Positions 10,539-28,686 of a stretch of 35,907 nucleotides of DNA are shown here, piece after piece. The translations under genes and the position numbers were made by a program. The stretch comes from Rhizobiaceae bacterium. Its GTDB lineage: Bacteria; Pseudomonadota; Alphaproteobacteria; Rhizobiales; Rhizobiaceae. Where the stretch lies: the NCBI GenBank assembly GCA_029212415.1, contig JARGOF010000012.1, positions 1 through 35,907 on the forward strand, written 5' to 3'. Below the pieces are notes generated by a model. That model made no database searches. It saw only the letters and a program-made list of their open reading frames with translations, and was not told the DNA's origin. Numbering within the stretch: the stretch's first letter is position 1; every line of letters begins with the position of its first letter.

Positions 10539-10743
10539 GTTTCACCTCAAAATCTATATTCATGATTTGCTACCAACGGCATAGCGGCTTTCCCGCCAAA
10601 ATCAATCCATAAACGATCCTGAGGGCGGCATCAGCATTCAAATGCAATGAATTTCGCTCAGGCGCCATCGGAAGAATTCCGCTTTAGCACACGTGGGCAT
10701 GTGCGGCGTGGCAATCAAGCCATGGGCGTCAGAGAATTTTTTC

Positions 10744-10770
10744 TTGAATGAACATTCAATTAAAAATAAT
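10744..10770 (+). promoter_or_regulatory. BetI-like palindrome and promoter elements upstream of betC
   Basis: TTGAATG (10744-10750) and CATTCAA (10753-10759) form a palindrome with a 2-bp centre. It overlaps a possible -35 (TTGAAT) with an AATAAT -10 (10765-10770), though the 15-bp spacing is short. The site resembles TTGAACGTTCAA-type boxes recalled for the choline-sensing TetR repressor BetI. The rest of the 10539-10887 region, shared with the divergent ALDH gene, holds only a weak nested repeat (CCTGAG 10618-10623 with CTCAGG 10657-10662, and ATTCA/TGAAT inside it). Confidence 0.55.
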
Positions 10771-10887
10771 AGATGGTATGTTGTCCCGGGCAGGACACGC
10801 ACGCAACCGTGCAGCAAGCCTGAAAACGCGCTGCCAAAGCCGCAATCGCCTTGCGACAACGCGCAAACAAACCAAAGGCCGTGGATC

Positions 10888-12417
10888 TTGAGCACCAGCA
10901 ATCCGAATATTCTGATCATCATGGTTGACCAGCTCAATGGCACCCTGTTTCCAGACGGGCCTGCCGACTGGCTGCATGCGCCGCATCTCAAGGCGCTGGC
11001 CGCGCGCTCGGCCCGTTTTGCCAACAATTACACCGCCTCACCGCTCTGTGCCCCCGGCCGCGCCTCCTTCATGTCCGGGCAATTGCCAAGCCGCACCCGC
11101 GTCTTCGACAATGCCGCCGAATTCGGCTCCGACATTCCGACCTATGCGCATCATCTGCGCAGGCACGGCTATTACACATGCCTGTCGGGCAAGATGCATT
11201 TTGTCGGGCCCGATCAGCTGCACGGCTTCGAGGAGCGGTTGACGACCGATATCTATCCGGCGGATTTCGGTTGGACGCCGGATTATCGCAAACCCGGTGA
11301 GCGCATTGACTGGTGGTATCACAATCTGGGCTCGGTGACGGGTGCCGGCATTGCGGAGACCTCCAACCAGATGGAATATGATGATGAGGTGGCCTTCTAC
11401 GCCACCCAGAAACTCTATCAACTCGCCCGCCAGTCCGATGAAGACAAGGCCCGGCCCTGGTGTCTGACGGTCTCCTTTACCCATCCCCATGACCCCTACT
11501 TAGCGCGGCGCAAATATTGGGACCTTTATGAAGATTGCCCGCATCTGGAACCGGAGATCGGGCCGATCCCCTTTGATGAACAGGACGCCCATTCGCAACG
11601 TCTTTACCTGGCCAATGATTACCGCAAGTTTGATATTACCAAGGACAATGTGAGACGAGCGCGGCGCGGCTATTTCGCCAATATTTCCTATCTCGACGAC
11701 AAGGTCGGCGAACTGATGGCGGTGCTCGAGGCCACCCGCATGCGCGATGATACGATGATCCTCTTCTGCTCGGATCACGGTGACATGCTGGGCGAGCGCG
11801 GCCTGTGGTTCAAGATGAGCTTTTTTGAAGGGTCATCGCGGGTGCCCCTGATGATCTCGGGTCCGGGCATTGCGCCCGCCCGCATCGATGCGCCGGTGTC
11901 CAATCTGGATATCAATCCGACCCTTGCCGATCTGGCCGGCGCCAGTCTGGAGGCCATCATGCCGTGGACCGATGGGGAAAGCCTCCTGCCCCTGATGCAG
12001 GGTGAAGAGCGGCTATCGCCGGTGCTGATGGAATATGCGGCCGAGGGGTCCTATGCGCCGCTGGTGTGCATCCGGCAGAACCAGTTCAAATATGTCGCCT
12101 GCGCATTGGATCCGCCGCAGCTGTTTGATCTGCAAAACGACCCGTTGGAACAGGTCAATCTGGCGGCAACGACCGATCACGCAGACATTGCTGAAATATT
12201 TGCCGCCATGGCCAGGGCGCGCTGGGACCTGGAGCAATTCGACGGCGCTGTGCGCGAAAGTCAGGCGCGGCGTTGGGTGGTCTATGAGGCCCTGCGCAAT
12301 GGTGCCTATTACCCCTGGGACTACCAGCCGCTGCAAAAGGCATCCGAACGTTTTATGCGCAACCACATGGACCTCAACATCCTGGAAGAAAGCAAACGCT
12401 TTCCCAGAGGAGAATAG
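10888..12417 (+). CDS. betC: Choline-sulfatase
   Basis: This 509-aa type I sulfatase hydrolyses choline-O-sulfate to choline and sulfate in the cytoplasm, feeding glycine-betaine synthesis. The opening NPNILIIMVDQLNGTLFPDG, the segment ERLTTDIYPADFGWTPDYRK and the W-rich C-terminus match the rhizobial BetC family. The formylglycine site is C54-A-P-G-R58 and the metal site includes CSDHGD. I chose a TTG start at 10888 with AAAGG 9 nt upstream. It puts the catalytic cysteine at 54, as I recall for Sinorhizobium BetC; the frame is open to 10693 but that stretch is promoter DNA. It is first gene of betC-betB-betA. Activity needs a formylglycine-generating enzyme encoded elsewhere. Confidence 0.95.
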   Translation: MSTSNPNILIIMVDQLNGTLFPDGPADWLHAPHLKALAARSARFANNYTASPLCAPGRASFMSGQLPSRTRVFDNAAEFGSDIPTYAHHLRRHGYYTCLSGKMHFVGPDQLHGFEERLTTDIYPADFGWTPDYRKPGERIDWWYHNLGSVTGAGIAETSNQMEYDDEVAFYATQKLYQLARQSDEDKARPWCLTVSFTHPHDPYLARRKYWDLYEDCPHLEPEIGPIPFDEQDAHSQRLYLANDYRKFDITKDNVRRARRGYFANISYLDDKVGELMAVLEATRMRDDTMILFCSDHGDMLGERGLWFKMSFFEGSSRVPLMISGPGIAPARIDAPVSNLDINPTLADLAGASLEAIMPWTDGESLLPLMQGEERLSPVLMEYAAEGSYAPLVCIRQNQFKYVACALDPPQLFDLQNDPLEQVNLAATTDHADIAEIFAAMARARWDLEQFDGAVRESQARRWVVYEALRNGAYYPWDYQPLQKASERFMRNHMDLNILEESKRFPRGE

Positions 12418-12432
12418 ACGCGGAGAATGATA

Positions 12433-13905
12433 ATGACAGACCTTCGAGCACAACCCAAAGCCTCGCATTTCATCAATGGTGAATTTGTCGAGGATACGAA
12501 TGGTCCATTGATCGAATGCATCTATCCGGCCACCGGTGAGGTGATTGCCAGATTGCATTCCGCCACGCCATCCATCGTCGAGCAGGCCATCAAGGCTGCT
12601 GTCGAGGGCCAGAAGGTCTGGGCCAAAATGACCGGGACGGAGCGCGGCCGGGTGCTGCGCCGGGCCTGCGACATCATGCGCGAGCGCAACCGCGCCCTGT
12701 CTGAACTGGAAACGCTGGACACCGGCAAGCCCATTCAGGAAACTCTGGTGGCCGATGCCACATCAGGCGCCGATGCGCTGGAATATTTCGGCGGGCTGGC
12801 TGCAACGATCAACGGCGAATACATCGATCTGGGTGGTGATTTTGTCTATACGCGGCGCGAGCCGCTGGGCGTCTGTGTCGGCCTTGGCGCGTGGAACTAT
12901 CCGACCCAAATTGCCTGCTGGAAAGGCGCACCGGCGCTGGCCTGCGGCAATGCGATGATTTTCAAACCCTCGGAAATCACACCGCTGTGCGCCCTGGAGG
13001 TTGCCAAGATCCTGCATGAGGCCGGATTGCCTGCGGGCGTTTACAATGTGATCCAGGGCTACGGCGATGTGGGCGCGGCGCTCAGCACCCATCCACAGGT
13101 CGACAAGGTTTCACTGACGGGATCAGTGCCCACGGGCAAGAAGGTCATGGCGGCGGCCGCTGCCGGCATTCGCCATGTGACAATGGAGCTCGGTGGCAAG
13201 TCTCCGATCATCGTTTTTGAAGATGCTGATCTGGATGATGCCGTCGGCGGCGCGCTGCTGGGCAACTTCTACTCCAGCGGACAGGTCTGTTCCAATGGTA
13301 CGCGGGTCTTTGTGCAGAAATCACGTCTCAATGAATTTCTGGACAGGGCCATTGCCCGCACGCAGTCCATTCGCATCGGCGATCCGGGTGACGAGGCCAC
13401 CCAGATGGGACCGCTGGTCAGTGCCGCCCAGCGCGACAAGGTGATGGACTATGTCGCCATCGGCCGCGATGAGGGCGCGAAACTCGTCACAGGCGGCAAT
13501 CGCCTCAATTTGCAAGGCATGGAAGAGGGTTTCTTCATGGAACCCACCATTTTTGCCGATGTAACCGACGACATGCGCATTGCCCGCGAAGAGATTTTCG
13601 GGCCGGTGATGAGCGTCCTGGTGTTTGAGGACGAAGACGAGGTGATCGCGCGCGCCAATGATACGGAGTTTGGTCTTTCGGCGGGTGTCTTTACCCGGGA
13701 CCTTTCACGCGGCCACCGGGTCATTGCCCAGCTCAAGGCCGGCAGTTGCTGGATCAACACCTATAATCTTGCACCCGTGGAAGCGCCCTTCGGGGGCTAC
13801 AAGCGCTCCGGTGTCGGGCGGGAGAATTCCCGCGCCGCGCTTGAATATTACAGTCAGATCAAAAGCGTCTACGTGGCGACCGGCCCGGTTGACAGCCCCT
13901 ATTGA
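12433..13905 (+). CDS. betB: Betaine-aldehyde dehydrogenase
   Basis: This 490-aa NAD(P)-dependent enzyme oxidises betaine aldehyde to glycine betaine, the second oxidation step from choline. The general base is E252 in MELGGKSP and the nucleophile is C286 in [11 protein letters not shown]. These are the same numbers known for bacterial BetB and support the ATG at 12433 over the ATG at 12427; GGAG at 12422-12425 is also 7 nt from 12433 but only 1 nt from 12427. The ending [13 protein letters not shown] is typical. It lies 15 bp after betC and 23 bp before betA, so the three are clearly one operon. Confidence 0.95.
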
Positions 13906-13928
13906 GCCAGACAGAAACGAGTTCAAAC

Positions 13929-15578
13929 ATGCAAGCGGATTTTGTCATTATCGGTTCGGGTTCCGCCGGATCAGCCATGGCCAGCCGGCTGTCCGAGGAC
14001 GGCAAGAATACAGTCATCGTGCTGGAATATGGCGGCACCGATGCCGGACCCTTCATCCAGATGCCGGCCGCCCTGTCCTATCCCATGAGCATGGGAATCT
14101 ACGACTGGGGGTATGAAACCGAACCGGAACCGCATCTGGGCGGGCGTCGGCTCGCCGCGCCGCGCGGCAAGGTCATTGGCGGCTCCTCCTCCATCAACGG
14201 CATGGTCTATGTGCGCGGCCATGCGGAAGATTTTGACGGCTGGGCCGAGGCCGGCGCCGACGGCTGGGCCTATGCGGATGTGCTGCCCTATTTCCAGCGC
14301 ATGGAACATGCCCATGGCGGACAGGAGGGCTGGCGCGGCACCAAAGGCCCGCTGCATATCCGCCGTGGCGATCAGAAAAACCCGCTCTATGAAAGCTTCA
14401 TCAAGGCCGGACAACAGGCCGGGTTTGAGGTGACCGAAGACTATAACGGCGAGAAGCAGGAAGGCTTCGGACCGATGGAACAGACGATCTATCGGGGACG
14501 GCGCTGGTCGGCGGCCAATGCCTATCTCAGGCCTGCGCTGAAGCGCTCCAACCTGCAATTGGTCAAAGGCCTGGCGCGCAGGATCATCATCGAAAACGGC
14601 CAGGCCGTCGGTGTTGAAATCCAGCGCGGCGGCAAGATCGAGACAATCGGCGCAAACCGTGAGGTCATTGTCGCAGCCTCGTCCTTCAACTCGCCCAAAT
14701 TGCTGATGCTGTCTGGCATCGGCCCGGCGGCGCATCTGCGTGACATGGGCATCGAGGTCATCGCCGACCGCCCCGGGGTCGGCGCCAATCTGCAGGACCA
14801 TCTGGAGCTTTATGTCCAGCAGGAGAGCATCAAACCGATCACGCTCTATTCAAAACTGAACCTCTTTTCCAAGGGGCTGATCGGCGCCGAATGGCTGTTT
14901 TTCAAGACAGGCCTTGGCACCTCCAATCATTTCGAGGTGGCGGCCTTCCTGCGCTCGCGCCCCGGCATCAAATATCCCGACATTCAATACCACTTCATCC
15001 CGGTGGCCATTCGCTACGACGGCAAGGCCGCCGCAAAGTCCCACGGCTTTCAGGCCCATGTGGGTCCGATGCGCTCAAAATCGCGCGGCAATGTCACCCT
15101 GCGCTCGGCAGAGGCGACAGATGCGCCTGTCATCCGCTTCAACTATATGAGCGCGCCTGATGACTGGGCGGAATTTCGCCATTGCATCCGGCTGACACGC
15201 GACATCTTTCAGCAGAAGGCTTTTGATCCCTATCGGGGGGCGGAAATATCGCCGGGCGCCGCTGTGCAAACGGATGATCAGCTTGATGCCTTTATCGCCG
15301 AACATGCGGAAAGCGCCTATCACCCCTGCGGCACCTGCAAAATGGGCAGGACAGACGACCCGATGAGTGTGGTTGATGCGCAATGCCGGGTGATTGGTGT
15401 TGACCGGCTGCGGGTCGCCGATTCCTCGATTTTTCCGGAGATCACCAACGGCAACCTCAACGGTCCGTCCATCATGGTCGGCGAGAAGGCATCCGATTAT
15501 ATTCTCGGCAAATCGCCCCTGCCCCGCTCCAATCTGCAACCCTGGATCAATCCGCGCTGGGAGACGTCTGACCGGTAG
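13929..15578 (+). CDS. betA: Choline dehydrogenase
   Basis: This 549-aa GMC-family flavoprotein is membrane-associated. It oxidises choline to betaine aldehyde and can also carry out the second step. The FAD loop GSGSAGSA is at 9-16; the GMC signatures [18 protein letters not shown] and [16 protein letters not shown] are present; the active-site region is [12 protein letters not shown]. The length equals the usual 549 residues of rhizobial BetA when started at the ATG 13929. The frame also opens at a TTG (13902) that overlaps the betB stop, which would add nine residues without homology. It is the last gene of the operon; betI and choline transporter genes are absent from the window. Confidence 0.95.
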
Positions 15579-17553: not shown

Positions 17554-19626
17554 ATGGTGTCGAATGCAGGTTCGTTCGTGCTCATTTGGGGGAGAGCGAA
17601 ACGAACGGGCCAGTGCGATCCAGACAAGAGCAAATCATTGGAATCTCATTTGATAAACAAGACCAACAATGATTCTGATTCCGGACAATGGCAATACCGG
17701 AGTGACATTGACGGCCTGCGCGCCATTGCGGTCATTGCCGTCATTGCAGGCCATGCCTTTGAGACCTGGTTTCCAGGCGGTTTTCTTGGCGTGGATGTTT
17801 TCTTCGTCATTTCGGGCTTTGTGATCACCCAGTCTCTATTGCCCCAAAAACGCAGCGATGCAGGCGCGTTTTTATCCGCGTTTTTATTGCGCCGCATCAA
17901 GCGATTGCTGCCGGCGCTGCTTGTCTGTGTTGCAATAACGAGCGGCGTGACACTGCTGATTGACCCGACACCTGCGGCTTCAATTCAAACAGGCATGGCC
18001 GCATTGCTGGGCTTTTCGAACCTGTCCCTGTATTTTCAGGAACTCGACTACTTCGCAGCCACGGCCAGATACAATTCATTTACCCATACCTGGTCGCTGG
18101 GGGTCGAGGAACAATTCTATCTGCTGTTTCCAGTGCTGTTCTGGTTGGCAATGCAGCGCTCTTCCACCAGCAGAAACACGATTTTCACAACAAGCATTGC
18201 ACTGCTCGCTGCGGCATCTTTTGGCGCATTTGTCGGATTTCACGACAGCCATCCGGTCGCCACCTATTACTGGATGGGGACACGGTTCTGGGAGCTTGGA
18301 ACCGGCGTTCTGGCGGCACTGTTTGTTCACAGGAGTGGATTGTGCTTCCGCCTGCCGTATAGCCGCGGGCTGGCGATGGTGCTCCTTGCACTGCTGTTTA
18401 CTCTGTTCCTTGTACCGGCACGTCTGGTCCCCTGGAACAATCTGGCCGCTGTCACCTTTGTCTGCCTTCTGCTGGTCATTGGCGCATTTCCGCAAAATCA
18501 GCTGCCCATTTTGACCAATGGCGTGGCCAGGTATCTGGGTAAAACCTCCTATTCGCTCTACCTTTGGCACTGGCCGTTTCTGACCTTTGGCCTTTTGGCG
18601 CCCAGAAGCTTCTTCGCATCAAAAGCGCTGGCCATTGTTTGTGCTGTTGTTGCCGCCAGCATTTCCTATCATTTTGTCGAGCAGCCTTTCCGCCGTGCTC
18701 CCTTGCCGAGAAGAAAGCGAAACTATTTCGCTTTCGCCGTTGCATCCGTTGGCCTTGCATGTCTGCTGATCGCAGCCAGCCTCGACTATAGAAAACAGCT
18801 ATTGGCTGCCATTGGCATCAATCATGCCGTCATTGAAAAAGCATTGGGTGAAGGGTTTCTGCCTCTGCCGGAAAGTGGGCTTTCCTTTGTGCACACATGT
18901 GCCATCGATGGCGATGGTCGACGCCTCAAGGACAATACGTTTGCGGCCTGTACGTTTCCGCCCATACCGGGGGGCGATGCCAGAACCCTTTGGGTAATGG
19001 GAGACAGCCATGCAGGCCATCTGCAGGGGATGCTGATTGAGCTGCGCACCCGTTACGGGCTCGGTTTTCACCTGGTCGAGACGCCGGGAAAGAGGTTTCC
19101 GAATGACAAAGACACAGACTTTGCCCCGCGCCTTGCCCTGTATCAGGATGCCAGGGCCGTGTGGAAACCTGGTGATGTGGTTGTCCTGTCACGTTTGTAT
19201 ATCAGAAGAAATGAAAGAATGACCATTCATGAGACCGTGCCCCGATGGCTGGATGCGGTCAACGTTCTGGCAAAAGATCTCAAGGCTGAGGGACTGAATC
19301 TCATGCTGGTCGGACCACCGCCGATGTTCGATTTTGAAGATATCCGAGCCTGTAATCCGTCCTATCCATTGATCTGTGCAAAGAACCGCGCGGCGCTGCT
19401 GAAACCGGTCGCGCAAATCCATGCGCAAATTCGCACAATCGTTGAAGAAAATGACAATGTTGCTCTGTTTGAGACATTTCCACATCTGTGCCCTGACAAT
19501 GAGCCAACCTGCTCCCCGGCGGATGAAGGTTTTTTCCTGTTTCGCGATCGCGACCATCTGAACGCACAGGGCGCAGCGCGTCTGGCACCGGAATTCTACA
19601 GGGCCCTGAGCCTTTTCGAACGGTAA
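17554..19626 (+). CDS. Acyltransferase-3 / SGNH-hydrolase fusion (OafA-type surface polysaccharide acyltransferase)
   Basis: This 690-aa inner-membrane protein is predicted to add acetyl or other acyl groups to LPS O-antigen, exopolysaccharide or another surface glycan. The acyltransferase-3 domain (about 48-400) has about ten spans, beginning with YRSDIDGLRAIAV and the catalytic H67 in IAGHAFETWFPGGFLGVDVFF. A periplasmic SGNH domain follows, with GDSH at 483-486 (S485 nucleophile) and DRDH at 665-668. The 47 residues ahead of YRSDIDGLRA are longer than usual and the ATG at 17554 lacks a ribosome site. A TTG at 17650 (codon 33) is an alternative start, so the first residues are uncertain. 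Confidence 0.9.
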   Translation: MVSNAGSFVLIWGRAKRTGQCDPDKSKSLESHLINKTNNDSDSGQWQYRSDIDGLRAIAVIAVIAGHAFETWFPGGFLGVDVFFVISGFVITQSLLPQKRSDAGAFLSAFLLRRIKRLLPALLVCVAITSGVTLLIDPTPAASIQTGMAALLGFSNLSLYFQELDYFAATARYNSFTHTWSLGVEEQFYLLFPVLFWLAMQRSSTSRNTIFTTSIALLAAASFGAFVGFHDSHPVATYYWMGTRFWELGTGVLAALFVHRSGLCFRLPYSRGLAMVLLALLFTLFLVPARLVPWNNLAAVTFVCLLLVIGAFPQNQLPILTNGVARYLGKTSYSLYLWHWPFLTFGLLAPRSFFASKALAIVCAVVAASISYHFVEQPFRRAPLPRRKRNYFAFAVASVGLACLLIAASLDYRKQLLAAIGINHAVIEKALGEGFLPLPESGLSFVHTCAIDGDGRRLKDNTFAACTFPPIPGGDARTLWVMGDSHAGHLQGMLIELRTRYGLGFHLVETPGKRFPNDKDTDFAPRLALYQDARAVWKPGDVVVLSRLYIRRNERMTIHETVPRWLDAVNVLAKDLKAEGLNLMLVGPPPMFDFEDIRACNPSYPLICAKNRAALLKPVAQIHAQIRTIVEENDNVALFETFPHLCPDNEPTCSPADEGFFLFRDRDHLNAQGAARLAPEFYRALSLFER

Positions 19627-19657: not shown

Positions 19658-20506
19658 TCATATCTCATAGGCATTGAGATCTTCGATGATTTCCGCAGGC
19701 CCGGCAAAATGGTCTTTAAGGTCCGCATGGGCACTGGCGTGCCCCTCTTCTGTGTCCATGTGAATGCGAAAATGGCTGAGCAGGAGTTTTTTCACACCAG
19801 CGGCCTCAGCCATCCTGGCCGTGTCTGCCGGAGTGGGTGACATGGCGCTGATGGCCGGGTGGATCGGATCGATGGACAGGCGATAGCACCAGTGCAGCAG
19901 CACATCGGCATTTTGAGCCAGCGTTTTGAGCGGGTCGCAGATTGCGGCATCTCCGGAATAGACGAATTTTTTGCCCCCGGCCTCAACCGAAAACGCCATG
20001 CAGTCGAAGGCCGGCTGGGCGTGTGGCACGGCGCAGGATTTCAAGGTCCAGCCATTGCCTTGATAAGCAAATCCCGGGGCAATCTCGGTGACGACGGGCG
20101 CTGGCCAGGCGCGCGGCAGGGTGCCGCCGCGCGAGACCCAGACTTCCTGACTGGGCTTGAGTTCCGTGCGGGCGATCAGATCGGGCGCCAAGACGCCATT
20201 GCGGCCGAAATAGCCTTCACTCTGACGGGCAATGGGCTTTGGTCCCCAGACCTTCAGCGGCGGCGCGCCTTCATCCCATGCGGCATGCACCAGACGCGCA
20301 TAATCCATCATGTGATCGGAATGCAGATGGGTGAAAAACAGATGGGTGATATCGCGCGGCAGACGCCCTGATCGCAGCAGATTGTCAAAAACCCCGCCGC
20401 CGCAATCAAACAGGATCCTGTCTTCGCCGACTTCCAGCAGATAGCCGCTGGAGGCCCGGCGCACACAGGCTTCCGGCGAGCCGGAGCCGAGGATCGTCAG
20501 TTTCAT
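19658..20506 (-). CDS. MBL-fold metal-dependent hydrolase (RNase Z-like)
   Basis: This 282-aa metallo-beta-lactamase-fold protein has the metal motif THLHSDH (59-65: H60, H62, D64, H65), a SGDA strand and a late HFRIH. It resembles the RNase Z/arylsulfatase-like group of MBL hydrolases, whose members act on nucleic acids, phosphoesters, sulfate esters or lactones. It lacks the length of SdsA-type alkylsulfatases. The ATG at 20506 has GGAG 8 nt upstream and sits one base after the TGA of the sulfatase gene, so translation is coupled. The frame is open back to 20614 without homology. As third gene of the marR-sulfatase-MBL operon, a role in processing the desulfated or sulfated substrate is inferred. 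Confidence 0.88.
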   Translation of the reverse strand: MKLTILGSGSPEACVRRASSGYLLEVGEDRILFDCGGGVFDNLLRSGRLPRDITHLFFTHLHSDHMMDYARLVHAAWDEGAPPLKVWGPKPIARQSEGYFGRNGVLAPDLIARTELKPSQEVWVSRGGTLPRAWPAPVVTEIAPGFAYQGNGWTLKSCAVPHAQPAFDCMAFSVEAGGKKFVYSGDAAICDPLKTLAQNADVLLHWCYRLSIDPIHPAISAMSPTPADTARMAEAAGVKKLLLSHFRIHMDTEEGHASAHADLKDHFAGPAEIIEDLNAYEI

Positions 20507-20507
20507 G

Positions 20508-21941
20508 TCATATCTCCGGTGGCGGGGTGGCGGCTTTCGGGCCGAGACCCTTGACGATGTCCGGTCCGCCCAGTTGGGTGACCAGCGCGGCCTGGTCGGC
20601 CATGGCCTGCGCATTCACCGCATCCGGGTCGACAAACAATCGCAATTGCCTTTCCATCTCGCAAACCACGTCGCGGTGCGCGGGATCGGCTGCCAGATCA
20701 GTCAGTTCTTCGGGGTCGGTTTCCAGGTCGAACAGTTCGGGCGGGAAACCGACATAATGGTGGTATTTCCAGCGCCCCTTGCGCAGCATATAGCCACCCG
20801 AGACGGAACCGATGGCGTGATATTCGCTGAAGGCAGGCCTGTCCGGCTGGTTTTCCTGCCCGGCCACGTCTGTGAGCGAGGCCAATTGCGGGGTGCCTTC
20901 GATATCCGTGCCAAAATGCAGGGCAATGGTTTTCGACAGGTCAAGCAGCGAGACCGGCGTTTGACAGACCCCCACCGGAATATCCGGGCCGGCCATGATC
21001 AGCGGAATATTGACGCTCTCCTGGTAGAGGTTGGACTTGCCCCAAAGACCGCGCGCCCCGACATTGTCGCCGTGATCGGAGGTATAGACGACCGTGGTGT
21101 CGTCCAGATAGCCGTTCTCCTGCAGCGCCGAAAGAATGTCACCAACATTGAAATCAAGCCAGGAGCACAGGCCGAAATAGGAGGATATAGCGCGCAGCCG
21201 CTCCTCCTCGTCGACGAAATGCGCCTCGGTGTCCATCACCGCGTTGAGCTTTTCCACCCAGGGGTGTCGCCGATATCCGTCCTTGGGCCGCAGTTTCGTC
21301 GGCGCCAGTTGATCGGCGGGATAGAGATCAAAATATTCCTGCGGAACGATCAGCGGAAAATGCGGCGCGACGAGGCCAACATAGAGGCACCAGGGCCGTT
21401 CATCATCGGATGCGGCGCGTGTCTCAAGCCAGCTTCGCGTATGCCGGGTGACGGCCTGATCATAGTCCGTATACTTGCTGTGGCCAGCGCCGATGTGGTC
21501 ACCCAGCATGCGTTTGCCCGGCTGCAGCCTTTGATCTTCATCGCGGATCAGCGCCCAGGCCATTCCAATGCCATCCTGCACCATCATCGGGATATGTTCG
21601 ACGTCGAAACCGGCCGGATCTTCGGCGTCGCGGTAATGCAGCTTACCGATGGATTCCACCGGTACGCCCTTTTCCTGCAGGGCGTGGCCCCACCCCTTGA
21701 TGCTGCCCGTATAGGGCATGGCATTGTCCCAAAGCCGGGTCTGGTGCACATAGCGCCCGGTGGCGAAACTGGCCCGTGCCGGTACGCAGATGGGGCTCGG
21801 CGTATAGGCGTTTTCGAAGCGCGTGCCGCGGCTGGCCAATGCATCCAGATGGGGTGTGCGCACCAGCGGATGGCCGGCGCAGCCGAGCGCCCGCCCCTGG
21901 TGTTCATCGGACATGATGACCAGTAGGTTGGGTCGTTTCAA
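20508..21941 (-). CDS. Sulfatase (type I, Cys-type), arm 1 of the TTT cluster
   Basis: This 477-aa alkaline-phosphatase-fold sulfatase has the formylglycine signature C52-V-P-A-R56 in PSPICVPARASFATG, the metal ligand D12 near the N-terminus (NLLVIMSDEHQG) and YTSDHGDNVGARGLW with the second metal residues. No signal peptide is visible, so it acts in the cytoplasm after substrate uptake. It resembles choline-sulfatase or arylsulfatase-A-like members but lacks the BetC-specific ending. The start is a TTG at 21941 whose last two bases are the first two of the TGA of marR, with GGAGGAAGAGG in front. The real substrate is unknown; the divergent TTT transporter suggests an anionic organosulfate. 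Confidence 0.92.
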   Translation of the reverse strand: MKRPNLLVIMSDEHQGRALGCAGHPLVRTPHLDALASRGTRFENAYTPSPICVPARASFATGRYVHQTRLWDNAMPYTGSIKGWGHALQEKGVPVESIGKLHYRDAEDPAGFDVEHIPMMVQDGIGMAWALIRDEDQRLQPGKRMLGDHIGAGHSKYTDYDQAVTRHTRSWLETRAASDDERPWCLYVGLVAPHFPLIVPQEYFDLYPADQLAPTKLRPKDGYRRHPWVEKLNAVMDTEAHFVDEEERLRAISSYFGLCSWLDFNVGDILSALQENGYLDDTTVVYTSDHGDNVGARGLWGKSNLYQESVNIPLIMAGPDIPVGVCQTPVSLLDLSKTIALHFGTDIEGTPQLASLTDVAGQENQPDRPAFSEYHAIGSVSGGYMLRKGRWKYHHYVGFPPELFDLETDPEELTDLAADPAHRDVVCEMERQLRLFVDPDAVNAQAMADQAALVTQLGGPDIVKGLGPKAATPPPEI

Positions 21942-22417
21942 GCCTCTTCCTCCAATTGATCCACCCTTTGCTCGAGCTTGTCGAGAACGGCGTAAAAAGT
22001 CTTGCGTTCGGCTTCACTCAGGCAATTGAGCAGCGAAGCCTGGCGGCCCCGCATGGACGGCCGGGCCTTTTCAAAGGTTGCGCGCCCCAGATCCGTCAAC
22101 CGCAGTTCCTGCGTCCTTTGATCCTTGGTGCCGATTTCACCGATCACCAGACCGGCCCGCACAAGTTCCTTGACGGTGCGGCTCATCTGCCCCTTGTCAA
22201 ATCCTGAAAAGCGCACGAATTCGGCCATTGTGGCGCTTTGGCGCTGGTTCAGGAAACTGACGATGCGCCATTGGCTCAGCGAGAGATCACTGGTTTCCTT
22301 GAGGATTCTGGCGGCCTGTGCCGTCATTTTGGCGTTCAGGCGGGCAAATTTGTAGGTCATCAGTTGCTGAAGCGGATACATGCTGTCGGCAACATCAATT
22401 TTTACAGTTTGTGACAT
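21938..22417 (-). CDS. MarR-family transcriptional regulator of the TTT/sulfatase cluster
   Basis: This 159-aa winged-helix regulator has the HTH around ATMAEFVRFSGFDKGQMSRTV and the wing with D-Q-R (about 60-112), flanked by dimerisation helices. The ATG at 22417 has AAGGGG about 7 nt upstream. The frame stays open to 23002 only as antisense shadow of tctC. It is first gene of the leftward operon and divergent from tctC, with palindromes and TTAGTTGAC repeats in between. Local regulation of both arms in response to the transported compound or its product is the natural inference. Confidence 0.92.
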   Translation of the reverse strand: MSQTVKIDVADSMYPLQQLMTYKFARLNAKMTAQAARILKETSDLSLSQWRIVSFLNQRQSATMAEFVRFSGFDKGQMSRTVKELVRAGLVIGEIGTKDQRTQELRLTDLGRATFEKARPSMRGRQASLLNCLSEAERKTFYAVLDKLEQRVDQLEEEA

Positions 22418-22452
22418 TTTCAGCCCCTTCTGGTGCTGCAGATTGGCAGCTA

Positions 22453-22493
22453 TTAGTTGACCCGTCAACGAATTTAGTTGACAGATCATCTGT
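22453..22493. promoter_or_regulatory. Divergent operator region: GTTGAC palindrome, direct repeat and second palindrome
   Basis: GTTGAC-CC-GTCAAC (22456-22469) is a 14-bp palindrome. TTAGTTGAC occurs twice, at 22453-22461 and 22474-22482, 21 bp (two helical turns) apart. A second palindrome, ACAGAT-C-ATCTGT, spans 22481-22493. The second repeat contains a consensus -35, TTGACA (22478-22483), for the tct operon, though no clear -10 follows. This is the likely binding region of the adjacent MarR protein. Confidence 0.6.
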
Positions 22494-22532
22494 TTTTGGC
22501 TTTCGTACAGGCATAACAACCGGGAGAAGAAC

Positions 22533-23486
22533 ATGAAAGTTTTCAGGAGAATTCTGGTCGCGGCCGTGGCCCTGACCGCCAGCACCGGCGCCACGCTGGC
22601 CGCCGACTGGACACCGCCAGGGCCCATCAAACTGATGATCGCTTTTCGTGCCGGCGGCGGCGCTGACACCCAGGCGCGGCTGATCGCCGAAGCGCTTGAG
22701 GCAAAGCTGGGATGGAAATTCATCCCCGAACAGGTCACCGGCAAGGGCGGCCTGAATATGGCTGCGGCGCTGAAGGACGCTGCCAATGATGGCACCGCCA
22801 TCGGCATGACGGTGACCGAGACCTTTGGATACAATATGGCGGCTGCACCGAAAGCCGGTATGAAACCTGCCGATTTTACCGGCCTGACCACCACAGCCGG
22901 TTTCCAGATGGGTGTCGTGGCGCCGAGCTCCAAGGGGTGGACGTCCTTTGGTGACATGGTTGCTGCCGGCAAGGGCGGCGAGCAAATCCGGTTCGGCGTC
23001 ATGAGCCCGAAACTGGCTGATCTGGCCTATTTGCTCGGCAAGGCGCAGGGCGTCTCGCTGAACATTGTTTCGGTCAGGGGCGGCAAGGCCGTGATGGACG
23101 GGGTGAATGCCGGCGATCTTGACGTCGGCTTCATGGCCGGCATCCAGGCCAAGGGCGTCGCAGCTGGCGATCTGGTCAACCTGGCGTCAGGGCTTTCCGA
23201 ACCTCTGAATCAGACGCCCGACGCACCGACTTTGGCGGATCTGGGGGTTGCCTTCAATGCCGATGGCCAATTCGTGTTTGTCGGCCCTGCGGGCATGCCT
23301 GAGGATGCAAGGACAGCGCTGATTGATGCCATTGCGGGTGTTGTTACCGACGACACCACCAAGGCCGGCGGCTACATCAAGAAAGCCTTCGGCAGTGCGG
23401 TGGTGATCAGTGGCAGTGATTTGGACGCCATGCTGCAGACGAGTTACGATGCTGCCGGCGCCTTGCTCAAAGCGGCCTCTGAATAA
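22533..23486 (+). CDS. Tripartite tricarboxylate transporter substrate-binding protein (TctC/Bug family)
   Basis: This 317-aa periplasmic binding protein has a signal peptide ending near ATLAADW (cleavage around residue 24). The family segment LMIAFRAGGGADTQARLIAEAL (about 33-54) and the GKGGLNMAAALKDA loop are typical of Bug-type proteins, which bind carboxylated or other anionic ligands. The start has GGGAGAAG just upstream. It captures the substrate for TctA/TctB encoded downstream. The ligand is unknown; the flanking sulfatases suggest a sulfated or sulfonated organic acid. It is first gene of the rightward operon, divergent from marR, and followed by an intercistronic hairpin that may set a high level of the binding protein. 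Confidence 0.92.
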   Translation: MKVFRRILVAAVALTASTGATLAADWTPPGPIKLMIAFRAGGGADTQARLIAEALEAKLGWKFIPEQVTGKGGLNMAAALKDAANDGTAIGMTVTETFGYNMAAAPKAGMKPADFTGLTTTAGFQMGVVAPSSKGWTSFGDMVAAGKGGEQIRFGVMSPKLADLAYLLGKAQGVSLNIVSVRGGKAVMDGVNAGDLDVGFMAGIQAKGVAAGDLVNLASGLSEPLNQTPDAPTLADLGVAFNADGQFVFVGPAGMPEDARTALIDAIAGVVTDDTTKAGGYIKKAFGSAVVISGSDLDAMLQTSYDAAGALLKAASE

Positions 23487-23495
23487 TCCCAAAAC

Positions 23496-23528
23496 CCTGT
23501 CGGGCCGGCCACTGGCCTGTCCGGCAGG
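23496..23528 (+). other. Intercistronic hairpin between tctC and tctB
   Basis: CCTGTCGG (23496-23503) pairs with CCGGCAGG (23521-23528) through one G-U, and inside it GGCC (23507-23510) pairs with GGCC (23514-23517). There is no T-tract. Such structures commonly protect or partly terminate the binding-protein message so it is made in excess over the membrane subunits. Confidence 0.5.
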
Positions 23529-23541
23529 ATCTGTATTCGTT

Positions 23542-23572
23542 AAATCCCGTTTCCGCCAAATCCCGTTTCCGC
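23542..23572. repeat. Tandem duplication of a 15-bp unit (period 16)
   Basis: AAATCCCGTTTCCGC occurs at 23542-23556 and again at 23558-23572, in the gap ahead of tctB. It looks like a recent slippage or duplication and has no evident function. Confidence 0.85.
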
Positions 23573-23601
23573 GACGCCCATTGCAGTGACCCACCGGATC
23601 C

Positions 23602-24177
23602 ATGATGAAAAAGCCGCTTTTTCAAAACACCAACGTCATGACCGGTCTGTTTTTTACAGCTCTGGCGCTGTTGCTGCTGTTTGTCTGGATACCGCTCGAT
23701 TCCGACACGGGTTTGATTGAGAAGGTGCGCCGACAGGTGGCAATCGGTGATGCCCTTGCCCCCACCGTAGCCGCTCTGTTTCTGCTGATCGGGGGCGGGC
23801 TTTTGATGCTGCTGGAAGGCAAGAGCGACACGCCCCCCGCGATCGACGCAGCAAGCGTGAAATTCGTTGCCCGCATTTTTGCGATGTTGGTCCTGAGCTT
23901 TGTGCTGATGCGCTATGCCGGCCCTCTGGCCGTCCAGGTGGTCAACGCCATACAGGGCAATGACCTTGAATATCGCCTGCTGCGCGACACAGCGCCCTGG
24001 AAGTGGCTTGGTTATGTGCTGGGAGGCACCCTGGCCATCTGCGGCACGATCAGCCTGACCGAGGGCCGCTTCAGCCTGCGCGCGCTGGTCGTGGCCCTCT
24101 TGGCAATTGCCGCAATGATCGCCATTTTCGATCTGCCGTTCGATGATCTTCTGTTGCCCCCGAACGGCGACTTATGA
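23602..24177 (+). CDS. Tripartite tricarboxylate transporter small membrane subunit (TctB)
   Basis: This 191-aa membrane protein has about four hydrophobic helices (near 14-30, 55-72, 85-103 and 133-185 in two spans). It has the low sequence conservation usual for TctB; identification rests on size, topology and position between tctC and tctA. It partners TctA in importing the TctC-delivered substrate. Two adjacent ATGs (23602, 23605) can serve as start and the ribosome site is weak. The stop overlaps the tctA start by four bases (ATGA), so translation is coupled. Confidence 0.85.
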   Translation: MMKKPLFQNTNVMTGLFFTALALLLLFVWIPLDSDTGLIEKVRRQVAIGDALAPTVAALFLLIGGGLLMLLEGKSDTPPAIDAASVKFVARIFAMLVLSFVLMRYAGPLAVQVVNAIQGNDLEYRLLRDTAPWKWLGYVLGGTLAICGTISLTEGRFSLRALVVALLAIAAMIAIFDLPFDDLLLPPNGDL

Positions 24178-25766
24178 TGGGCACACTTGACTATATCTGG
24201 TTGGGTGTACTGGCGGTTTTTCAGGGCCCCGAGCTCTTTTCAATCTTCGGCCTGCCGATTTCCATCACGCTCTTGATGATCCTTTGCGGCTTTCTGCTGG
24301 GCATTGTCGTTGGCGCGACACCCGGGCTGGCCGGCCCCGTTGCCATGGCCATTTCACTGCCGATCCTGATTTCGGTCTTCGGCTATACGCCGGACGCCCT
24401 TTTGCCGGTCATGGGCTTTCTCATCGGCATCATGAAGGGCGCAACAATTGGCGGCGCGGTTCCGGCGATCCTGTTCAACACGCCGGGCACGCCCGACGCC
24501 TATATGACGACGCTTGACGGTTACCCCATGGCACAGAAGGGCCATGCGAAAAAGGCCCTGCGCGTGGCGCATTTCGCCTCCGTCAGCGGCGATACGTTTT
24601 CGGATGTCGTGCTGGTCATCTGCGCGCCGTTTCTGGCGCTGCTGGTGGAGCAATATCTGGACCTGCCGGAAAAGACTGCCCTGCTGATCCTGTCGCTGTC
24701 CTTTATCGCAGCCGCCGTCGGCGGTTCGGCTGCCAAGGGACTGATCTCGACCGGGCTTGGCCTGCTTGTCGCGTTCATCGGTACGGGCGCAGATTTTTAT
24801 CCACGGCTGTCGATGGGAACCGAAGCCTTGAGCCAGGGAATCACGCTGGGGCCGGCCATCCTCGGTGTGCTGATCATTGGCGCCGTGTTTCATGAACTGG
24901 CCGGGCAATGGCGCCATAGGGACGTTGCTTCCCGCCCGGTGCCGCAGATCGAAATCGGCAGTGACAGGCTCAGCCTTGGCGATATCCGCAAATTGATGCC
25001 CTATATCGGCAGGTCAGCGATCGTCGGCACCATGGTCGGCGCCCTGCCCGGCATCGGTTCAACCCTGGCGGCAACCATCGGCTATACGATGGGCCAGCGG
25101 CGGCACGAAAAAAGGGCCAAACTCGACGAACCCGCCTTTGGCGAGGGGGCCATGGAGGGCATTGCAGCGACAGAGGCTGCCAATTCCTCCGTCTCGGGTG
25201 CAAACCTGATCCCTGTCCTGTCGCTGGGCATCCCCGGCAATACCGCCGCCGTGTTTCTGATCCTGGCGGCCGATAGTATCGGCGGCTTCAATCCCGGACC
25301 GTCGGTGTTCAAGTTCACAACCGATGCGGTCAACCCGGAACTGGTCATCGCGTTTGGCCTGTTCACCGCCATGTTCGTCGCCAATTTTCTCAACTGGACG
25401 ATTGGCGGATTGTTCATGCGCTCCATGGGCGTCATGGCAAGGGTGCCGAAGCAATTGCTGCTGCCCGTGGTGCTATTGTTGACGCTGACGGCCATTTACG
25501 TTCAGGAAACGCGCCTTGAGGTGATCTGGTTCACATTGGCCTTCGGGCTGCTCGGTTATGGCATGCGCCTGCTGGCCATCTCTCCCCTGCCCTTCGTGAT
25601 CGCCTTCATTCTCGGCGGCAAGCTGGAGGCAACGGCACGTCAGGCCTTCGATGCAACCGGCAGCGATCCATTCTTTCTGCTTAATAATCCCATTGCGGCA
25701 GCCTTCATGGTGCTGTCTGTCGCGATCATTTTCCTAGCGTCACGTAAAAAACCGGAGTCCAAATGA
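24174..25766 (+). CDS. Tripartite tricarboxylate transporter large membrane subunit (TctA)
   Basis: This 530-aa protein has about 11-12 membrane spans and both TctA signature loops: GIVVGATPGLAGPVAMAI (about 43-60) and GALPGIGSTLAATIGYTMG (about 287-305). It forms the secondary-transport channel of the TTT system. The start ATG overlaps the tctB stop, and its own stop overlaps the start of the downstream sulfatase (ATGA again), tying uptake and desulfation into one translational unit. Confidence 0.95.
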   Translation: MMGTLDYIWLGVLAVFQGPELFSIFGLPISITLLMILCGFLLGIVVGATPGLAGPVAMAISLPILISVFGYTPDALLPVMGFLIGIMKGATIGGAVPAILFNTPGTPDAYMTTLDGYPMAQKGHAKKALRVAHFASVSGDTFSDVVLVICAPFLALLVEQYLDLPEKTALLILSLSFIAAAVGGSAAKGLISTGLGLLVAFIGTGADFYPRLSMGTEALSQGITLGPAILGVLIIGAVFHELAGQWRHRDVASRPVPQIEIGSDRLSLGDIRKLMPYIGRSAIVGTMVGALPGIGSTLAATIGYTMGQRRHEKRAKLDEPAFGEGAMEGIAATEAANSSVSGANLIPVLSLGIPGNTAAVFLILAADSIGGFNPGPSVFKFTTDAVNPELVIAFGLFTAMFVANFLNWTIGGLFMRSMGVMARVPKQLLLPVVLLLTLTAIYVQETRLEVIWFTLAFGLLGYGMRLLAISPLPFVIAFILGGKLEATARQAFDATGSDPFFLLNNPIAAAFMVLSVAIIFLASRKKPESK

Positions 25767-27289
25767 AACAGCCGAACATATTGCTCATCTCCGCCGACCA
25801 GCAGCGCGCCGATTGTTTTGGTTTCAAAGGTCGCGCAGTCAAAACGCCACATCTTGACCTGCTTGCTGCCCAGGGCACCCATTTTGACGCCTGCATCACG
25901 CCCTGTGTGGTCTGTCAGCCGGCGCGCGCCTCGATCCTGACCGGACAGCTATGCCGCACCCACGGCGTTCACGATAATGGCATCGACCTGGCCCCTGAGA
26001 TCGGGTCAAAGGGATTTGCCGGCAGCCTTGGCGGCAACGGCTATGAGACATCCTTTTTCGGCAAGGCGCATTTTTCGACGTTCCACACATTCGAAAAAAC
26101 CGGAACGCCCGAATGCCTGAAATCCTCGTCCGATTACCCCGACACCTGGTTCGGCCCCTATATGGGCTTCGAACATGTCGAGCTGATGCTGGTCGGGCAC
26201 AATTGGTTCCTGCCCGAAAAGCCACCGGCAGGCCAGCACTACGAGCGCTGGTTCTATGCGGATGGCCGCGGGGACGAGAAAAACGAATTGTACCGCCGCA
26301 ATGCGGGCGATACCAAGGGCGCCGCACAGACCTGGCATTCGGAGCTACCGGTTGCCTGGCACAATTCCACCTGGACGGCAGACAGGGCCATTGAATGGCT
26401 CAAACACGGGCGTGATGCGGAGCAGCCGTTTTGCTCCTGGGTCAGCTTTCCGGACCCGCATCACCCCTTCGATGCGCCCGAGCCCTGGTCACGGCTGCAT
26501 GATCCAGCGGATGTTGATCTGCCCGAACACCGGACCCGCACCTTTGAAAACCGGCCCTGGTGGCACGAGGCCGTTCTCTCGTCCGAGCCGACCGGACGCA
26601 AGCAGGATGCAGAAATCCGCAAGGCCTATAGTCGCATACAGGAACAGTCCGACGAACAGTTGCGCGAAATCATTGCCAATACCTATGGCCAGATTTCCCT
26701 GATCGATCACAATGTCGGGCGCATCCTGATGGCGCTGGACGATGCCGGCCTGGCGGACAATACGCTGGTTTTCTACATTTCCGACCATGGCGACTGGCTG
26801 GGAGATCATGGCCTGATCCTCAAGGGCCCGATGCATTATGAAGGACTGCTGAAGGTGCCGATGATCGTCAAGGGTCCGGGCGTGCCCGCAGGCAAGCGCG
26901 TGGAGGAGCCGGTTTCAACACTGGATCTGGGGGCTACATTTGCCGATTATACCGGCTCTGCACCGCTGCTGGACCAACACGGTCAATCGCTGCGGCCTCT
27001 CATCGAGGGCGACGCCACGCGCGACTTTGCCCTGAACGAATGGGAGTTGCTGCCGACACGCGCCGGTGTGGCGCTCAGCCTTCGCACCGTGCGCACAAGG
27101 ACCCACAAGATGACCATCGATCTCAATTCCGGCGCTGGGGAATTGTATGATCTGACAAAGGATCCGCACGAGCTGAACAATCTATTTGATGACGATGCGA
27201 GCCAGGAAATCCGCAAGACCCTTGAAGCCGCCATCGCCAGTCGTCCCGATGATGCCGGTCCCATCCACGCCCAGGTGGGCCTTGCCTGA
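25763..27289 (+). CDS. Sulfatase (type I, Cys-type), arm 2 of the TTT cluster
   Basis: This 508-aa sulfatase has the formylglycine site C51-Q-P-A-R55 (VVCQPARASILTG), D12 at the N-terminal metal site (NILLISADQQR) and ISDHGDWLGDHGLILKG for the remaining metal ligands. No signal peptide is visible, so it is cytoplasmic. It differs clearly in sequence from the sulfatase at 20.5-21.9 kb and from BetC, so the two cluster enzymes are not a recent duplication. The start overlaps the tctA stop. The gene lies at the end of the tct operon and converges, with a 12-bp gap, on the channel gene. It presumably removes sulfate from the imported ligand. Confidence 0.92.
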   Translation: MKQPNILLISADQQRADCFGFKGRAVKTPHLDLLAAQGTHFDACITPCVVCQPARASILTGQLCRTHGVHDNGIDLAPEIGSKGFAGSLGGNGYETSFFGKAHFSTFHTFEKTGTPECLKSSSDYPDTWFGPYMGFEHVELMLVGHNWFLPEKPPAGQHYERWFYADGRGDEKNELYRRNAGDTKGAAQTWHSELPVAWHNSTWTADRAIEWLKHGRDAEQPFCSWVSFPDPHHPFDAPEPWSRLHDPADVDLPEHRTRTFENRPWWHEAVLSSEPTGRKQDAEIRKAYSRIQEQSDEQLREIIANTYGQISLIDHNVGRILMALDDAGLADNTLVFYISDHGDWLGDHGLILKGPMHYEGLLKVPMIVKGPGVPAGKRVEEPVSTLDLGATFADYTGSAPLLDQHGQSLRPLIEGDATRDFALNEWELLPTRAGVALSLRTVRTRTHKMTIDLNSGAGELYDLTKDPHELNNLFDDDASQEIRKTLEAAIASRPDDAGPIHAQVGLA

Positions 27290-27301: not shown

Positions 27302-28450
27302 TTAAGGATCATCGCCGAAATAGCCCTTGCGAAGCTTTTCGATCTGCTCCTGTTCGCGGGCGCCGAGAATCTCGACGGTCATGCGCTTGGTGTAGGGACT
27401 GTCGCGGGTCAGGGCAAAACCGTATTTGTCCGGCGCAAAGATCTTGCCGACCACATTGAGCGGCAGGTTCGGATGGGTCGTGGCATAATATTCCAGCACC
27501 GGGGCGTCGCCGATCACGGCTTCGATCTCTTCGCTCAACAGCGCCTTTGCCAAAGCTTCGATGCCCGGATAGGTGCTTATGGACAAGCCGTCTTCACGCG
27601 CCTGTTCCTCAGCGGTGCTGCCGGATTGCACGCCAACCGGCCTGTCACGAAGATCGGCATAACTGTTTATATTGTTGGTCAGCGACAGTGAGGTCATGAC
27701 ACTTGTCACCGAGGAGGTGACATAGGCCAGAACCGCGATACCGCATACCAGCCAAAGAGCCTGCATGATGCGGCCAATCCAGCCGAAAAGATTTGGCCGA
27801 CCCGGCATGCGCCCGGAGGTCGCCACCGACATCACCACGTAGAAGCTTTCCGCTACACCTTCCCGCCAGGCCGAGGGGAATTGTTTGTTGAACCGGCGGT
27901 CGAACAGAGTGAGCAGCAAGGTTGACCCGATGATGACCAGAGCCAGCCAGCCATAGGCGCGCAGATAGCCGGCATTCGACAGGCCTTCGACCAGCGCTCG
28001 AAAACCGACACCGCGGTCCTCATTGACCATGATCCTGAGGCCTGAATCAAACCACGGCTGGGTAAAATCAACCCGCTCGGCCCGCGCCCGCGTAATGGTG
28101 ACATTGGTGACTGCAACATCCACCGTGCCCGCTGCAGTCTCATCCAGCAAATCGCCAAAATTCTCGAAATTGCGGTATTCGAAATCCAGATCAAGTTTGC
28201 GCGAAAGATTCTCCCAGATGTCGATCGCCATGCCCGTATAGGCGCCGTTTTCCTCCATGACGAATGGCGGACTGACATAAAGGCCTACGGTCAGAGGCGC
28301 GTCGGAGGTTTTCTCCTGAGCCAGAACGGCCGCCGGGGCAATGAGTGTAAAAAGAGCCAGAAGCAGAGCGAGGGAGCAGGTGATCTGGGCGAGACTGCGA
28401 AAAAATCGGACGGCAAGCTGCCAGGCCACAGTAGAAGAAAATAAGCGCAT
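27302..28450 (-). CDS. Prokaryotic glutamate-receptor-like ligand-gated channel (GluR0-like), atypical filter
   Basis: This 382-aa protein starts with a signal sequence (cleavage near AVLAQ, about 44). The ligand-binding half S1 (about 52-150) contains TITRARAERVDFTQPW, the alpha-carboxylate-binding arginine region. Helix M1 (about 164-184), a pore loop (200-218), the inner helix M3 with AYVTSSVTSVMT (242-253) and half S2 (about 255-375, VGVQSGSTAEE) follow. This S1-M1-P-M3-S2 order is the bacterial ionotropic glutamate receptor architecture. The pore loop reads SVATSGRMPGRP where GluR0 has TVGYGD, so potassium selectivity is doubtful. The start is taken as the ATG at 28450; a TTG three codons upstream is also possible and neither has a strong ribosome site. 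Confidence 0.85.
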   Translation of the reverse strand: MRLFSSTVAWQLAVRFFRSLAQITCSLALLLALFTLIAPAAVLAQEKTSDAPLTVGLYVSPPFVMEENGAYTGMAIDIWENLSRKLDLDFEYRNFENFGDLLDETAAGTVDVAVTNVTITRARAERVDFTQPWFDSGLRIMVNEDRGVGFRALVEGLSNAGYLRAYGWLALVIIGSTLLLTLFDRRFNKQFPSAWREGVAESFYVVMSVATSGRMPGRPNLFGWIGRIMQALWLVCGIAVLAYVTSSVTSVMTSLSLTNNINSYADLRDRPVGVQSGSTAEEQAREDGLSISTYPGIEALAKALLSEEIEAVIGDAPVLEYYATTHPNLPLNVVGKIFAPDKYGFALTRDSPYTKRMTVEILGAREQEQIEKLRKGYFGDDP

Positions 28451-28686
28451 GGATACCAATCGTGATCTTGAACCGAATCGAAATTACAGTGGCATAACCC
28501 AACATACCGCCGCATTAATCCAAAGCCTAAATTGCGGAAAAGGTTTATGGAATGTGAGTTTTGAAGACGGAACCGGTACGCAGCCATCAATTCGGATTGA
28601 TCCAGTATGATTGCCAATAGGCAGGATAGAATCCTGTGTTGTTGAAGAAACCGGGAGCAAATTCAAGACAGCTCGCATGTGCGTCT

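Follow-up and report, generated by a model that had tools for sequence, protein, structure and literature searches.

SlcHFG is an importer of the tripartite tricarboxylate transporter (TTT) class that has been proposed for 3-sulfolactate, and so is a TTT system for a sulfur-bearing 2-hydroxyacid, although this substrate is a sulfonate and the system is not known to include a sulfatase. On the enzyme side, D-lactate-2-sulfatase, which we take to be EC 3.1.6.17, was reportedly purified from Pseudomonas syringae GG by Crescenzi in 1984. Here we describe a cluster of seven genes at positions 19658-27289 of a 35,907-nt stretch of DNA from a Rhizobiaceae bacterium (contig JARGOF010000012.1; the whole stretch is called the window), encoding a MarR-family regulator, a TTT importer (TctC, TctB, TctA), two formylglycine-type sulfatases named SulA and SulB, and a hydrolase of the metallo-beta-lactamase (MBL) fold. 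The reaction that we propose for SulA would be the one of the P. syringae GG enzyme. According to the available part of one source, EC 3.1.6.17 was among the validated orphans ranked 'good' in 2007 and had no sequence then (PMC1940265).

Desulfation of a small anion is also known from the acesulfame sulfatases (PMC11500405, PMC10413263). In the available text of the two papers, the Shinella enzyme is of the formylglycine type and resembles SulA and SulB in fold, and the Bosea enzyme is of the MBL type and resembles the fold of our MBL gene product; however, the Bosea gene is accompanied by an ABC importer and an amidase, and the word 'tripartite' occurs in neither main text, so that the acesulfame pathway was rejected for this locus. 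Tripartite tricarboxylate transporters and sulfatases both occur in a further paper, whose available text treats them apart (PMC7029141). A literature search for TTT systems with sulfatases, mostly at the level of titles and abstract openings and with subscription papers outside its scope, returned no description of such a pathway; a search of similar depth on lactate sulfates and their breakdown returned aerosol, enzyme-survey and other papers and again no such pathway. Within that scope, the remark of an earlier note on this DNA that the system may be undescribed still stands.

We consider it very likely that the seven genes form a conserved, specifically regulated cluster for import and desulfation. 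That its substrates would be 2-(sulfooxy)carboxylates, divided between SulA and SulB by enantiomer, has in our judgement an even chance of being right. Along the window, the genes and signals are:

19658..20506, minus strand: MBL-fold hydrolase of 282 aa (PF12706/PF00753), HxHxDH motif intact
20508..21941, minus strand: SulA, BetC-like formylglycine-type sulfatase without signal peptide (PF00884), proposed D-2-(sulfooxy)carboxylate sulfatase
21938..22417, minus strand: MarR-family regulator (PF12802/PF01047), given from its most likely start
22453..22472, no strand: probable MarR operator, the palindrome TTAGTTGACCCGTCAACGAA
22473-22482: extra half-site TTTAGTTGAC, after TTAGTTGACCCGTCAACGAA
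22533..23486, plus strand: TctC, periplasmic receptor of the TTT importer (PF03401), signal peptide recognised by eye
23602..24177, plus strand: TctB, small membrane subunit (PF07331)
24174..25766, plus strand: TctA, large membrane subunit (PF01970)
25763..27289, plus strand: SulB, second formylglycine-type sulfatase without signal peptide (PF00884), proposed L-2-(sulfooxy)carboxylate sulfatase

All seven open reading frames are present and uninterrupted, and Pfam confirmed the families that the earlier note had assigned to them. TctA matches PF01970 at 313.9 bits, TctC reaches PF03401 with only 38.7 bits (cut-off 27) and TctB stays under the cut-off of PF07331 (23.1 against 29.1 bits), so the three genes whose joint presence defines a TTT transporter are encoded together in the window, with TctB as a sub-threshold member. 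For the MBL gene the most likely start is 20506, the place used in an annotated relative (L089; loci of relatives are labelled L and genomes G), rather than 20614, and for marR it is an ATG at 22417 that is preceded by an AAGGGG stretch, rather than 23002, where the longest reading frame begins; the MarR Pfam match was made on 21938-22450, which includes 11 codons ahead of the likely start. Translational coupling of the two operons had been supposed: four of the five junctions are indeed tight, with 4-nt overlaps at marR/sulA, tctB/tctA and tctA/sulB and a 1-nt gap between sulA and the MBL gene, whereas tctC and tctB are 115 nt apart. In both sulfatases the Pfam domain begins at residue 4, which leaves no space for a signal peptide, hence both should be cytoplasmic. 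Both retain CxPxR (CVPAR and CQPAR) and the conserved metal and sulfate ligands, and the host genome, with 12 PF00884 matches, has one match for a formylglycine-generating enzyme (FGE), as is expected of formylglycine-dependent sulfatases.

The gene set is found outside this strain, so the case that the earlier note had named as refuting, a set confined to this one strain, does not hold. Scanning with SulA gave 142 relatives, whose best 80 loci were kept; in the scored set of 80, one second copy was dropped and the window added, and a gene was counted where a match on the fetched stretch covered more than one quarter of the query. All seven genes were matched in 33 of the 80 loci, the window included, and individually MarR, TctC and TctB in 60 each, TctA in 59, SulB in 44 and the MBL gene in 38. 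The order differs among loci, the MBL gene lying between tctA and sulB in two of them (L048, L052), and SulB lying behind sulA and the MBL gene in L051 or directly behind sulA in L063; the same content in differing orders argues for a functional unit. SulA relatives are uncommon in the host's family, where 9 of 199 genomes, the host's among them, have one at E <= 1e-100, and a SulB scan of the class gave a match in 15 of 385 genomes, again counting its own. Among the 14 foreign SulB stretches, six carry SulA too (L126, L127, L130, L133, L134, L135), and no TTT gene was seen in four of these six, thus the sulfatases can remain linked without this importer. Several of the SulA loci have a universal stress protein gene after tctA. 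A gene of the phosphosulfolactate synthase family, ComA-like, directly follows tctA in L010 (5425-6237, minus strand; PF02679, 171.6 bits) and, by similarity, in L020 (5418-6317, minus strand). L062 and L064 have trimethylamine methyltransferase-like (MTTB; Pfam run on L062 only) and reductase-like genes directly downstream of SulA.

The divergent promoter carries a signal of its own. The palindrome TTAGTTGACCCGTCAACGAA is the sole match to GTTGA-N2-6-TCAAC in the 35,907 bases, where 0.12 matches are expected and 12 of 100 shuffles had one. Of 74 regions upstream of tctC, 37 contain the same pattern, every listed palindrome having a 4-base spacer, and sites with spacers of 2-6 number 52 in the 22,940 bp upstream of tctC versus 14 in the remaining 1,323,494 bp of the loci. 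With GTTGA-N4-TCAAC, the 140 loci scanned gave three other sites, located between sulB and sulA/marR in loci that have no TTT receptor (L037, L130, L133), and across these 140 loci the palindrome occurs only with this gene set. The other half of the 74 regions lacks it, L019 for example carrying a LysR gene there. An exact copy of the 13-base form exists in the host genome only at this promoter; two further places with one mismatch were not above a reversed control, and no wider regulon was seen. A sigma-70 scan of the promoter found none. Because the palindrome is specific to the set, control by MarR is well supported by these comparisons, and it would presumably act by repression. Taken with the conserved set and the domains that begin at residue 4, this bears out the earlier picture of a MarR-controlled TTT importer with two cytoplasmic sulfatases.

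A lead on what the sulfatases may release comes from 2-hydroxyacid oxidases beside them in relatives. D (R) 2-hydroxyacids are the substrates of LDHD-, GlcD- and D2HGDH-type FAD enzymes, and the L (S) forms those of LldD-type FMN enzymes. Over 145 loci, 49 oxidases were counted above set identities, and those within 300 bp were regarded as directly linked. Directly downstream of SulA and on its strand are six LDHD-like genes (L067, L071, L090, L092, L199, L205) and, in betaproteobacterial loci, 11 D2HGDH-like genes, while the oxidase directly downstream of SulB is LldD-like in eight of eight cases (L019, L078, L093, L191, L192, L221, L222, L224; L093 and L224 are near copies). No same-strand crossover of oxidase type was found among the 25 directly linked oxidases, the D-type gene of L089 converging on SulB. 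Beyond 300 bp there are 22 D-type genes (21 from a reverse search and one of the host) and the D2HGDH-like gene of L095, which a single MFS gene separates from SulA. Mitochondrial D-lactate dehydrogenase is the nearest match of the alpha D-type protein (468 bits), whereas the beta one is closest to an unnamed oxidoreductase (290 bits), followed by D-2-hydroxyglutarate dehydrogenase (277 bits), and these differing nearest families indicate that two D-type subfamilies came to adjoin SulA. The L-type protein, with 420 bits, is over the cut-off of the NCBIfam L-lactate dehydrogenase subfamily (376), under that of the stricter LldD model (369 of 550 bits), and shares 55% identity with lldA-annotated plasmid genes. 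Its best PDB total (303 bits) is to an L-lactate oxidase chain, which is a fusion with two 143-bit domains and for this reason was not used as support for lactate.

The reverse searches began from the oxidases. Locus L067 belongs to genome G583, and 390 genomes from the order of G583 gave two matches for the L-type subfamily at E <= 1e-155, both directly downstream of SulB, and on plasmids all four L-type records of at least 76% identity adjoin SulB (two being near copies), the other six having 55-57%. G584 and G585 hold a second L-type copy elsewhere, 54% identical, which makes the SulB-linked one look like a dedicated paralog. For the alpha D-type the same 390 genomes gave 24 matches in 21 genomes, three of which adjoin SulA (L199, L205 and L067, the seed of the search), and plasmid records of at least 70% identity lie in sulfatase loci in three of three cases. 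When TctA alone was the query, with neither SulA nor LldD, tctCBA-sulB-lldD operons appeared in two further records. In Paracoccus seriniphilus, plasmid p599725 has tctCBA divergent from marR-sulA-DLDH and plasmid p420573 has tctCBA-sulB-lldD; here the D module and the L module are naturally separated, each on its own plasmid.

Other genes also recur around the oxidases. At least six of the 21 unlinked alpha D-type genes are, by eye, beside TRAP transporter genes; L193-L198 have D-lactate-dehydrogenase-like genes 81-85% identical to that of L089 beside TRAP transporter subunits, with acyl-CoA ligase-like or amidase-like genes also alongside (by eye). An 'AbrB family' protein and an FGE gene recur by the SulA/SulB arm in L090, L093, L191, L192, L199 and L224, a recurrence that belongs to the oxidase-bearing branch and in which the FGE gene of L090 is a fragment. 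This AbrB-type protein may be a membrane protein, perhaps exporting anions.

The common product of both sulfatases is most simply a 2-hydroxyacid, and the common substrate then its sulfate ester, a dianion of the kind that a TTT system could carry. In the pathway that we propose, a MarR-repressed catabolic cluster would serve small 2-(sulfooxy)carboxylates, the sulfate esters of 2-hydroxyacids: TctCBA would import the intact dianion, SulA would desulfate the D form and SulB the L form in the cytoplasm, and the freed 2-hydroxyacid would be oxidised to the 2-oxoacid. Some relatives would use for this a flavin dehydrogenase, D-type or L-type, encoded in the operon itself, whereas the window's host may rely on D- and L-lactate dehydrogenase homologues that are unlinked to the cluster. 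The host has such genes, LDHD-like (56%) and LldD-like (54%), so a linked oxidase could be dispensable. Uptake of an intact anionic sulfate ester, proposed in the earlier note, is supported, as far as gene content can tell, by the conserved importer with its two cytoplasmic sulfatases, and TctCBA would be its probable carrier. The same note had taken the pair of sulfatases for two sulfate positions or two related substrates; the oxidase linkage suggests that they are better read as serving two enantiomers of one 2-hydroxyacid sulfate. Lactate would be the simplest choice, as the alpha D-type and L-type enzymes resemble lactate dehydrogenases and the host has both homologues elsewhere; the step from hydroxyacid to lactate is nevertheless a longer one, and we name lactate-2-sulfate in particular only tentatively. 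Equally speculative is the pathway in its fullest form, an undescribed enantiomer-split route in which racemic lactate-2-sulfate or a close analogue (glycolate or aryl-lactate sulfate) would be imported, with SulA for D and SulB for L, and in which each sulfatase would have evolved together with a stereospecific flavin dehydrogenase of its own. On the strength of the oxidase linkage in relatives, SulA may be considered a candidate gene for the orphan EC 3.1.6.17.

Several observations speak against this enantiomer-split pathway. The window's own branch has no linked oxidase (none in the 38 MBL-bearing loci of the 80 at the thresholds used), so it is the relatives that indicate its substrate, which may have shifted in this branch. 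The 11 beta D-type loci are interrelated and no TctA or TctB was seen in them; the alpha D-type family is not confined to SulA loci, since 21 of its 24 matches are elsewhere and one of the three linked to SulA is the seed L067; and in L010 and L020 the ComA-like gene takes the usual place of SulB. Per domain, the L-type protein scores 231 bits to hydroxyacid/glycolate oxidases of the PDB and 219 to (S)-mandelate dehydrogenase, compared with 143 to L-lactate oxidase. That last comparison, and the fact that MarR regulators often sense aromatics, would suit the same machinery working on a sulfated aromatic 2-hydroxyacid or amino-acid derivative (aryl-lactate, tyrosine or kynurenine-type sulfates), the freed acid entering tryptophan or tyrosine breakdown. 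Kynureninase-cluster genes, which would likewise suit an aromatic acid, occur in five of 116 clustered loci, each from a different taxon (L013, L022, L045, L068, L078), with tryptophan-dioxygenase-cluster genes in three of the five (L022, L068, L078); these calls were made by cluster, Pfam being run on the L078 pair only, and in L068 the genes follow SulB directly, as they follow a SulB-LldD-FGE operon in L078. HisC-type aminotransferases stand beside the D-type oxidases of L091 and L094, and L096 has homogentisate genes next to a paralogous set. However, 111 of the 116 loci have no kynureninase on the fetched stretch, and the L-type protein is above the L-lactate dehydrogenase cut-off and shares its 55% identity with the annotated lldA genes, and we hold an aromatic substrate to be rather unlikely. 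We would give about the same modest weight to a reading without any enantiomer logic, in which each sulfatase has a different substrate, the TTT importer accepts a broad range and the oxidases are salvage enzymes that happen to lie nearby. The low identity of SulA and SulB (30%), the occurrence of SulA without SulB and of SulB without SulA, and the use of the alpha D-type family in other clusters all agree with it, but the lack of any same-strand crossover among the 25 directly linked oxidases does not, nor does the fact that all examined members of the L-type subfamily adjoin SulB.

The other alternatives concern the enzymes themselves. The best solved relatives of SulA are choline sulfatases, the top one being SmCS of Sinorhizobium meliloti (PDB 6fny, 237 bits), and a betC-betB-betA-like set (choline sulfatase with PF12411, aldehyde dehydrogenase, GMC oxidase) lies a few kb off at 10693-15578 of the window, so SulA might be taken for a second BetC in the use of choline sulfate or an osmolyte. 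SulA has the same catalytic residues as SmCS (in SulA C52, R56, D12, K100, H102, H194, D289, H290, K302) and like it no signal peptide, but its transporter and regulator differ, it scores 290 bits to the choline-sulfatase model TIGR03417 (cut-off 433), and PF12411, the C-terminal oligomerisation tail, is absent from it and present in the window's BetC. TTT systems, moreover, carry anions. Glu386, which binds the quaternary ammonium, is fully conserved among choline sulfatases in the available text of the structural source (PMC5870055). At the equivalent site, 92 SulA orthologs, the window's included, have A in 52, V in 28, I in 11 and T in one, and E in none, while the window's own BetC, whose gene set served as a positive control, has E (SmCS numbering was taken from the alignment, chain positions being +3 relative to the residue numbers at Cys54, the formylglycine, Lys309 and Glu386). 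The missing Glu386 equivalent and the missing tail led us to reject the choline-sulfate reading of SulA, which on this alignment is BetC-like but not a choline sulfatase, and we regard a second BetC as extremely improbable. The sulfatases had been called distant from BetC; SulA turns out to be a relative of it, only without the choline determinant. That the two 'sulfatases' are instead phosphodiesterases or phosphonate monoester hydrolases, members of the same superfamily, is improbable: PehA model matches do occur, but their 147.5 and 166.3 bits fall far short of the cut-off (900), and FGE genes are linked in several loci, which fits sulfatases, if not exclusively.

In the MBL-fold enzyme, residues H60, H62, D64, H65, H162, D186 and H245 are invariant in 12 aligned sequences including the window's, and by both models and chains the sequence is RNase Z-like. 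An AlphaFold2 model from 11 sequences (pLDDT 86.3) has as its best fold match PDB 8gyg, the MBL-fold arylsulfatase of Pseudoalteromonas atlantica (E 8e-20, TM 0.77, 19% identity), with YhfI, PNGM-1 and RNase Z scoring nearly as well. No chain named as a lactonase is found among 18 sequence matches or among the best 50 of 1049 fold matches, and the idea that the enzyme opens a lactone is not supported, its nearest matches being RNase Z-like proteins and 8gyg; going by the model, it is possibly a third sulfatase. Across the 80 SulA loci the MBL gene (38) and the counted oxidases (15) never overlap, although in plasmid locus L089 the MBL gene and a D-type oxidase, convergent with SulB, are both present, and L028 and L032 combine MBL with a more distant D-type homologue kilobases away. 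This avoidance, which may reflect phylogeny or a genuine alternative, is what chiefly calls for caution on the window's own substrate. Plasmid copies of the MBL gene away from SulA, one beside a TTT receptor in Variovorax and two uninformative, offer nothing decisive on its role. A second copy (64.5%) on a plasmid of Sulfitobacter sp. SK012 (L217:8001-8849) stands beside a SulP anion transporter and a sulfatase.

The cluster is flanked by genes for an acyltransferase-3/SGNH protein (17554-19626) and for a periplasmic-binding-domain protein with an ion-channel-like match (27302-28459; PF00497 and PF00060), neither of which has a tblastn match in the loci of the 80 relatives.

In fine aerosol, the sulfates of glycolic and lactic acid often rank in the top five organosulfates by abundance, and at one Beijing site they made up 47% (glycolic) and 11% (lactic) of the quantified organosulfate mass, according to the available text of PMC12224290. 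If the proposed pathway is true, SulA would be a gene for EC 3.1.6.17 and SulB its L-counterpart, giving a gene to a sequence-orphan enzyme and a natural case of paired enantiospecific sulfatases. Marine and soil bacteria could then consume organosulfates derived from aerosol or biota, and the cluster would point to consumers of glycolic and lactic acid sulfates, compounds for which we know of no uptake-and-degradation genes.

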